Below, piece by piece: positions 17,155 through 25,804 of a stretch of DNA of 25,833 nucleotides. Each line of letters starts with the position of its first letter. Positions within the stretch are counted from its first letter, which is position 1. The notes under the pieces are model-generated. The model ran no database searches, was not told the DNA's origin, and saw only the letters and a program-made list of their open reading frames with translations. Source of the DNA: a virus. The DNA is taken from positions 1-25,833 of the IMG/VR virus record IMGVR_UViG_3300046028_000007, one strand, 5' to 3'. A program made the position numbers and the translations under genes.

Positions 17155-17192
17155 AAATAAAAAAGCCACCCCCCGATGTGGAGAGTGGCTTT
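17155..17192 (-). terminator. Intrinsic terminator/attenuator after the head genes
   Basis: On the minus strand AAAGCCAC (17192-17185) pairs with GTGGCTTT (17169-17162), with further C/G pairing inside the stem. The 3' arm runs into TTTTTTATTT. It sits 15 bases after the stop of the small head-fibre gene, and its U-tract abuts the ribosome binding site of the glycosyltransferase, so no separate promoter fits between them. Transcription of the glycosyltransferase and fibre genes must read through, or start further upstream. Confidence 0.85.
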
Positions 17193-25044: not shown

Positions 25045-25413
25045 TTATTTCAGGGTTAGTAAATACAAAGTTGAATTGATCAGATCGGCAATTTCATCAA
25101 CGATGTTTTGCAGTTCTGAATCTTGCGGTATTTCTTCACGGGCTTCCTCAACAAACTGTTTCAGTTGTGTCAAGTAGGCTTCAGGGGTTTCCTGTGGCTG
25201 ATGCAACTCATCAGGAAATTTAGTCATACGGGTGTTGTAGCGACCTTGATAACTCTCAGCTAACTGGTCTGCAAAGTCAACAATCTTGGGGTAGAACTTG
25301 CCCAAAGCCTTGTGAATAGCGTATTCCCGTGTCTGCAAATGCTGAAAATGGGTAATCGTGCCACTGTGAAACAGAGTAGCTACGAACTCGGCAACTTCAG
25401 CATTTTTTTCCAT
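25045..25413 (-). CDS. Dps/ferritin-like protein (DUF5856-type)
   Basis: The 122-residue, all-helical product contains ATLFHSGTITHFQHLQTREY (residues 12-31), then AIHKALGKFYPKIVDFADQL (32-51) and AESYQGRYN. H22, H34, D49 and E53 have the same spacing (11, 14 and 3 residues between) as the two His, Asp and Glu ferroxidase ligands of Dps proteins. The rest forms helices ending NIVDEIADLINSTLYLLTLK. Small phage proteins like this are grouped as DUF5856, a Dps-like family. Likely roles are iron oxidation/DNA protection or a structural helical bundle. There is no Shine-Dalgarno before the ATG; the promoter at 25420-25447 would place the mRNA start at or next to the ATG. Confidence 0.72.
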   Translation of the reverse strand: MEKNAEVAEFVATLFHSGTITHFQHLQTREYAIHKALGKFYPKIVDFADQLAESYQGRYNTRMTKFPDELHQPQETPEAYLTQLKQFVEEAREEIPQDSELQNIVDEIADLINSTLYLLTLK

Positions 25414-25419
25414 ATTTGC

Positions 25420-25447
25420 ACTATACCAAAAAAAGCGGGGGAATCAA
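25420..25447 (-). promoter_or_regulatory. Extended -10 promoter overlapping a terminator, leaderless start
   Basis: TATAGT (25425-25420) is preceded by TGG, giving an extended -10, and TTGATT (25447-25442) lies 16 bases upstream as a four-of-six -35. Six bases separate the -10 from the ATG at 25413, so transcription should begin at about the ATG. The -35 forms the loop of the terminator 25428-25457. It probably begins the small-gene/terminase transcription unit. Confidence 0.65.
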
Positions 25448-25457
25448 CCCCCAAAAA
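25428..25457 (-). terminator. Intrinsic terminator after the HNH-like gene
   Basis: On the minus strand TTTTT is followed by GGGGG (25452-25448), loop TTGATT, CCCCC (25441-25437), GC and TTTTTTT. The five-pair GC stem can extend by A/T pairs, and the U-run is typical of rho-independent termination. It lies 15 bases beyond the stop of the HNH-like gene and should separate that unit from the following Dps-like gene. Confidence 0.78.
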
Positions 25458-25471
25458 GGCAACTGCAATGC

Positions 25472-25804
25472 CTACTCAAATTCTGCCACAAAAGGGAGTG
25501 GAACTTCTACAGGCCATCTACCTTGTTTGCAAAGCAATAAAACTGTGCCAATGTGAGCCTCTGCCCACTTTCTTTGGCGTTCTTCCTTTGTTAAGTCTTT
25601 GCCTTGATCGATCTCGTAGTGGCAAGCCAAGCACAAAGCAGCGACCAAATTGTCATCTGCCTTGATGCCCCTGCCCTTGCCACCGCCCCAATTACTGTGA
25701 GCCGCCTGAACGCCATTGTCCATGCCACAGCTTTGACAGGAGAGACCCGCCACTAGTTTTAGGAGTTTCTGGCTTCTCACATATTGGTGCTTCGGATATT
25801 GCAT
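25472..25804 (-). CDS. HNH-like zinc nuclease (DUF1364-type)
   Basis: The 110-residue product has KLLKLVAGLSCQSCGMDN (C23, C26), then VQAAHSNWGGGKGRGIKADD with H36, then LCLACHYEIDQG with C58, C61 and H62, and ends with a helix and PVEVPLPFVAEF. Two CxxC pairs and the AAHSN / CxxCHxxID signature match a phage HNH-type family I know as DUF1364. HNH proteins next to terminases assist packaging-site cleavage in some phages, while DUF1364 members often sit in recombination regions; either role is possible. The start at 25804 has only a weak AAAGAA site, and the frame stays open to the window edge, so the true start could be upstream. Confidence 0.78.
   Translation of the reverse strand: MQYPKHQYVRSQKLLKLVAGLSCQSCGMDNGVQAAHSNWGGGKGRGIKADDNLVAALCLACHYEIDQGKDLTKEERQRKWAEAHIGTVLLLCKQGRWPVEVPLPFVAEFE

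Follow-up and report, generated by a model that had tools for sequence, protein, structure and literature searches.

Layout of the junction

The window, meaning the whole stretch of DNA analyzed, comprises positions 1 to 25,833 of IMG/VR virus record IMGVR_UViG_3300046028_000007. On its minus strand, an HNH endonuclease gene leads into GCAGTTGCC and a G5-TTGATT-C5 hairpin; seven T and GG come next, then TATAGT, and after six more bases the ATG of a gene for a DUF5856 protein. The features are as follows:

25472 to 25804, minus strand: HNH endonuclease gene (phrog_131, E=6e-25), the last of the upstream replication/recombination set by gene order in near-complete relatives
25457 to 25473, minus strand: weak hairpin AGGCA/TGCCT, of which GCAGTTGCC is the 3' arm
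25458 to 25466, minus strand: GCAGTTGCC, a conserved 9-mer shortly before the terminator
25436 to 25453, minus strand: terminator stem-loop TGGGGG-TTGATT-CCCCCG, about -10.9 kcal/mol
25442 to 25447, minus strand: loop TTGATT, a lineage-specific -35-like hexamer (4 of 6 matches, spacer of 16)
25428 to 25434, minus strand: U-tract of seven T, the last two being the TT of TTGn
25420 to 25429, minus strand: putative extended -10 element TTGgTATAGT, invariant except at n in 20 clusters
25426 to 25428, minus strand: TGG of that element
25420 to 25425, minus strand: TATAGT of that element
25411 to 25413, minus strand: ATG of the DUF5856 gene, its A being the predicted transcription start
25045 to 25413, minus strand: DUF5856 gene (PF19174, E=8e-21; phrog_858, E=2e-25), first gene of the putative late operon

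The initial annotation had described a terminator, a promoter, and a leaderless start at this place, and every element that it named is present on the minus strand where it had been put. It also called the downstream gene Dps-like. That label draws solely on the PHROG name of phrog_858, "starvation-inducible transcriptional regulator," whereas Pfam assigns the 122-codon gene to DUF5856, the name used here. A search by sequence gave no solved relative of the DUF5856 protein, and its AlphaFold2 model, with a mean pLDDT of 57, was set aside as a basis for a fold search. In the homologues P19250A, MW202484, and OR003940, the gene sits in other contexts.

In near-complete relatives, the genes upstream of the junction on the same strand include those for a DNA methyltransferase, a RusA-like protein, an NrdR-type zinc ribbon, and the HNH protein; the RusA and methyltransferase genes were identified by eye from sequence. 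The window also holds genes for a GroES-like protein, the terminase large subunit, a P22-like portal, and a P22-like coat protein. Because replication and recombination genes lie upstream and morphogenesis genes downstream, we place the site at the start of a late operon, for which late timing of expression is predicted. We take this position to be that of the Q/pR' region in lambda. The gene for the NrdR-type zinc-ribbon protein (PF22811; L001:2492-2722), a possible regulator, adjoins that for the HNH protein at this junction.

Conservation in related phages

The data are a comparative sequence analysis, mostly of uncultured viruses. An IMG/VR search returned 474 relatives, 80 of which were kept; later searches reached relatives at 50 to 65% identity, and all sequences were collapsed to 38 clusters at 93% gene identity. 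The window and its relatives belong to a family of freshwater phages, and the layout is kept across many of these relatives.

The window alone does not establish a promoter, since a simple consensus scan of 15.8 kb yielded 18 promoter-like sites against 19.5 expected, i.e., the chance level; the relatives are decisive. TATAGT stands just before the ATG in 79 of the first 80 relatives, at a distance of six bases (seven in L036), and only L077 is without it. When a -10-like hexamer was defined by at least four of six matches, with A2 and T6, 27 of the 38 clusters had one at an offset of precisely six bases from the ATG, compared with 0 to 2 clusters at each other offset from 0 to 25. The hexamers at this offset are TATAGT, TATCAT, TAGAAT, and CACAAT, each in a different part of the tree, with CACAAT matching at four of six positions in few sequences. 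Moreover, within the TATAGT clade the start methionine shifts by one or two codons (MEKN, MKN, or MN), and the gap stays at six bases. The start methionine of the DUF5856 gene is aligned in 27 relatives.

Across the 20 TATAGT clusters, TTG (-16 to -14) and TATAGT (-12 to -7) are invariant and position -13 is free; these rows were picked for TATAGT, which makes its invariance there a matter of construction, but neither the TTG columns nor the 79-of-80 count was so selected. For comparison, none of 24 four-fold codon columns in the same clusters is invariant, and their mean identity is 0.47. Conserved spacing and conserved columns indicate that the site is more than chance, and the unconstrained base that separates TG from the hexamer is characteristic of extended -10 elements. 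TGn is conserved and a -35 hexamer is absent in several relatives, as befits a promoter of that type; the TATCAT relatives lack TGn. An extended -10 promoter giving a leaderless mRNA is thus a well-supported reading of this putative site. One point counts against it: TATAGT is never TATAAT within its clade, and a plain sigma-70 site need not show such constancy.

The translation signal is in keeping with a leaderless start, for which a -10 element 6 to 7 bp away and the lack of a Shine-Dalgarno site are both found. Predicted anti-Shine-Dalgarno pairing is weak at the DUF5856 gene (-2.8 kcal/mol); 28 other genes of the window have a median of -5.75. Among the clusters, 28 have the hexamer without a Shine-Dalgarno site (L036, at seven bases, included), nine have a Shine-Dalgarno site without the hexamer, one has neither, and none has both. 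This alternation reflects only two to three independent changes on the tree, so that shared ancestry accounts for much of the count and its power as a test is small. In L077, which falls inside the TATAGT clade, TATAGT was lost and AGGG was gained before the ATG.

The DUF5856 gene may not be the only leaderless gene in these phages. Six near-complete relatives were scanned for a -10 hexamer 6 to 7 bases before the ATG of an open reading frame of at least 50 codons, and each genome gave two to four matches. Besides the DUF5856 gene, five of the six carry the hexamer before a helix-turn-helix gene of 51 to 59 amino acids, with P22_Cro above the cut-off in four and, in the fifth, only a YdaS-like match below it. 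In G007, the element before the Cro/YdaS-like gene is again TGATATAGT. These candidate leaderless repressor genes are:

L132:18552-18710, Cro/YdaS-like repressor gene
L135:7640-7795, Cro/YdaS-like repressor gene
L137:7040-7195, Cro/YdaS-like repressor gene
L139:6082-6261, Cro/YdaS-like repressor gene
L143:14953-15108, Cro/YdaS-like repressor gene

Terminator, shared bases, and the upstream 9-mer

A GC-rich hairpin with a U-tract directly after it has the form of an intrinsic terminator, and termination here is predicted on that basis. The consensus scan found 31 terminator-like sites in the window, against 17 expected. A strong terminator-like hairpin of 13 pairs also lies at 17162 to 17192 (minus strand), downstream of the coat-protein region. 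Relatives retain the stem with differing loops, and comparison with them supports the initial annotation on three signals that abut within 47 bases: the intrinsic terminator, the extended -10 promoter, and the leaderless start.

That annotation had further read the terminator loop as the -35 of the promoter. This holds in the window's lineage and some others, in which the loop hexamer matches at four or more of six positions (TTGATT, TTGAAT, or TTAACA), but not as a general feature: the hexamer is absent from the largest group of relatives (loop TTCG) and from L035, L079, and L123. A -35-like match of at least 4 of 6 occurs in 11 of 25 clusters, which are related to one another, compared with 17% in shuffles, and three of the 11 have lost the terminator, their TTGACA lying in HNH coding sequence. 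The loop hexamer was accordingly rejected as a common conserved element, and we read the -35 as probably optional. The bases truly common to both signals are instead the last T's of the U-tract, which form the TT of the invariant TTGn.

The initial annotation pictured a compact switch in which hairpin and promoter could interfere with each other. The two signals are separable, since each occurs without the other and neither requires its partner. TATAGT without a terminator is found in L027, L029, L033, L079, L080, and L082; in the first three, TATAGT persists with the HNH stop codon TAG inside it. These three also carry TTGACA in HNH coding sequence 18 bases upstream, and lack GCAGTTGCC along with the terminator. 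Conversely, L077, L148, L150, L201, and L212 have the terminator without the -10. In the last four, a Shine-Dalgarno site and the ATG come immediately after the terminator and leave no space for a promoter, a layout that suggests read-through or antitermination.

GCAGTTGCC precedes the terminator in most relatives, with one copy per genome there and sporadic others; a single copy per genome at this place led us to reject a repeated genomic site. The 9-mer followed by a G5-C5 hairpin recurs in more than 119 IMG/VR stretches, and among the matches listed, 56 of 74 distinct stretches have a T-tract. A control with one scramble of the 9-mer gave 28 matches, of which 21 were distinct and three had a T-tract. 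Many of the 9-mer matches are relatives of the window; others lie after RusA genes or between convergent genes. Diverse phage contigs carry GCAGTTGCC just before intrinsic terminators (L305, L306, L312, L326, L338, L341, L347, L355, L362, L375, L397, and L420). Rfam gave no family for the window locus (best hit, suhB/mmgR at 19.1 bits against a gathering threshold of 41) or for any of eight other loci. Evidence that the GCAGTTGCC hairpin keeps one fold is weak (mean z of -1.0 over 35 clusters, with differing pairings), so we claim conserved sequence and not conserved structure. A host origin of the GCAGTTGCC-terminator pair was also rejected, as it occurred in 1 of 150 genomes from the order of the one MAG relative, a count that does not thereby establish phage-specificity.

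We tentatively raise the possibility, at well under even odds, that GCAGTTGCC and the terminator together form a phage RNA module of the 3' UTR that has so far escaped description, is swapped among unrelated phages, and gates polymerase into downstream genes; the window's family would have joined this module to a leaderless late promoter. The association of GCAGTTGCC with terminators points to a possible phage RNA element that is not yet catalogued.

Proposed model and known leaderless systems

We propose, as the probable reading of the sequence, that the site is the boundary to the late operon, where a terminator after the HNH gene is followed by an extended -10 promoter and a leaderless DUF5856 mRNA. 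Transcripts of the upstream genes would end at the hairpin and U-tract past the HNH gene. Polymerase would restart at TTGnTATAGT, which opens with the final T's of the U-tract, and RNA synthesis would begin on the A of the DUF5856 ATG. Since the gene lacks a Shine-Dalgarno site, its own promoter is expected to be the sole source of well-translated mRNA, and read-through RNA should not serve. The four relatives with a terminator and Shine-Dalgarno site (L148, L150, L201, and L212) count against this model, since their DUF5856 gene must depend on read-through instead of a fresh start.

Those relatives, in which polymerase has no way to the late gene other than through the terminator, also favor a rival layout like that of lambda pR'. 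In it, a short RNA from a promoter upstream of GCAGTTGCC would end at the terminator if the polymerase is not antiterminated. The location between recombination and late genes matches Q/pR', and TANAAT-like hexamers precede GCAGTTGCC in several relatives, with L077 having TTGACA outside coding sequence. However, the upstream hexamer falls within the end of the HNH coding sequence in many relatives and is missing where the HNH gene lies further off (L046-L053); elsewhere, GCAGTTGCC sits between convergent genes. A promoter before GCAGTTGCC was rejected as a general feature on account of this inconsistency. The window itself has only CAGAAT upstream of GCAGTTGCC, and its gene has no Shine-Dalgarno site to exploit such a transcript. 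It is therefore unlikely that this is the main late control in the window's lineage too.

Slightly less probable still is that TATAGT acts at the RNA level, as a processing or ribosome-recruiting signal at a fixed distance from AUG on a transcript reading through the hairpin. The fixed six-base spacing would suit a ribosome signal as well, and some relatives need read-through, but TATAGT is not complementary to the anti-Shine-Dalgarno sequence, TGn at -15/-14 with n free is an extended -10 signature, and TATCAT, TAGAAT, and CACAAT at the same place have the -10 consensus and little else in common. That an ordinary terminator and a -10-like sequence lie side by side by chance, as the chance-level number of promoter-like matches in the window would allow, is contradicted by conservation and spacing in the relatives and is very improbable.

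If the proposed model of termination followed by a leaderless start is true, the late operon of this phage family opens with a leaderless gene that should be readable from its own promoter only. The idea lends itself to direct testing in natural relatives that keep one part and lack the other, or that have a Shine-Dalgarno site in place of the promoter (L077). Among the open papers searched, none reports a leaderless late gene with its -10 fused to a terminator, which is weak evidence of absence.

Lambda cI, transcribed from PRM, is the classical leaderless phage mRNA and starts on the AUG. It is a repressor gene, whereas the candidate here is the first late gene; a Cro/YdaS-like repressor gene, too, has the look of a leaderless gene in five of six near-complete relatives. 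Lambda cI is named as leaderless in PMC9031893. In lambda pR'-tR', too, a terminator lies where recombination genes give way to late genes, but the window's promoter comes after the terminator, not before it. A -10 hexamer 6 to 7 bp before the open reading frame, with little need for a -35, has been published for leaderless genes of Deinococcus-Thermus (PMC12340547) and more broadly (PMC3160421), and in leaderless genes of Deinococcus a -10 motif about 6 to 7 bp upstream was shown to act as a promoter (PMC12340547). The TANNNT type of Deinococcus and the TA-led genes of Zheng et al. 2011 resemble the present case in having a -10 about 6 to 7 bp before the open reading frame, no Shine-Dalgarno site, and an optional -35. 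The layout described here is thus a variation on known leaderless genes, differing from these -10-adjacent ones in its new part: a phage late-operon gene with a putative extended -10 that merges with the U-tract of a terminator.
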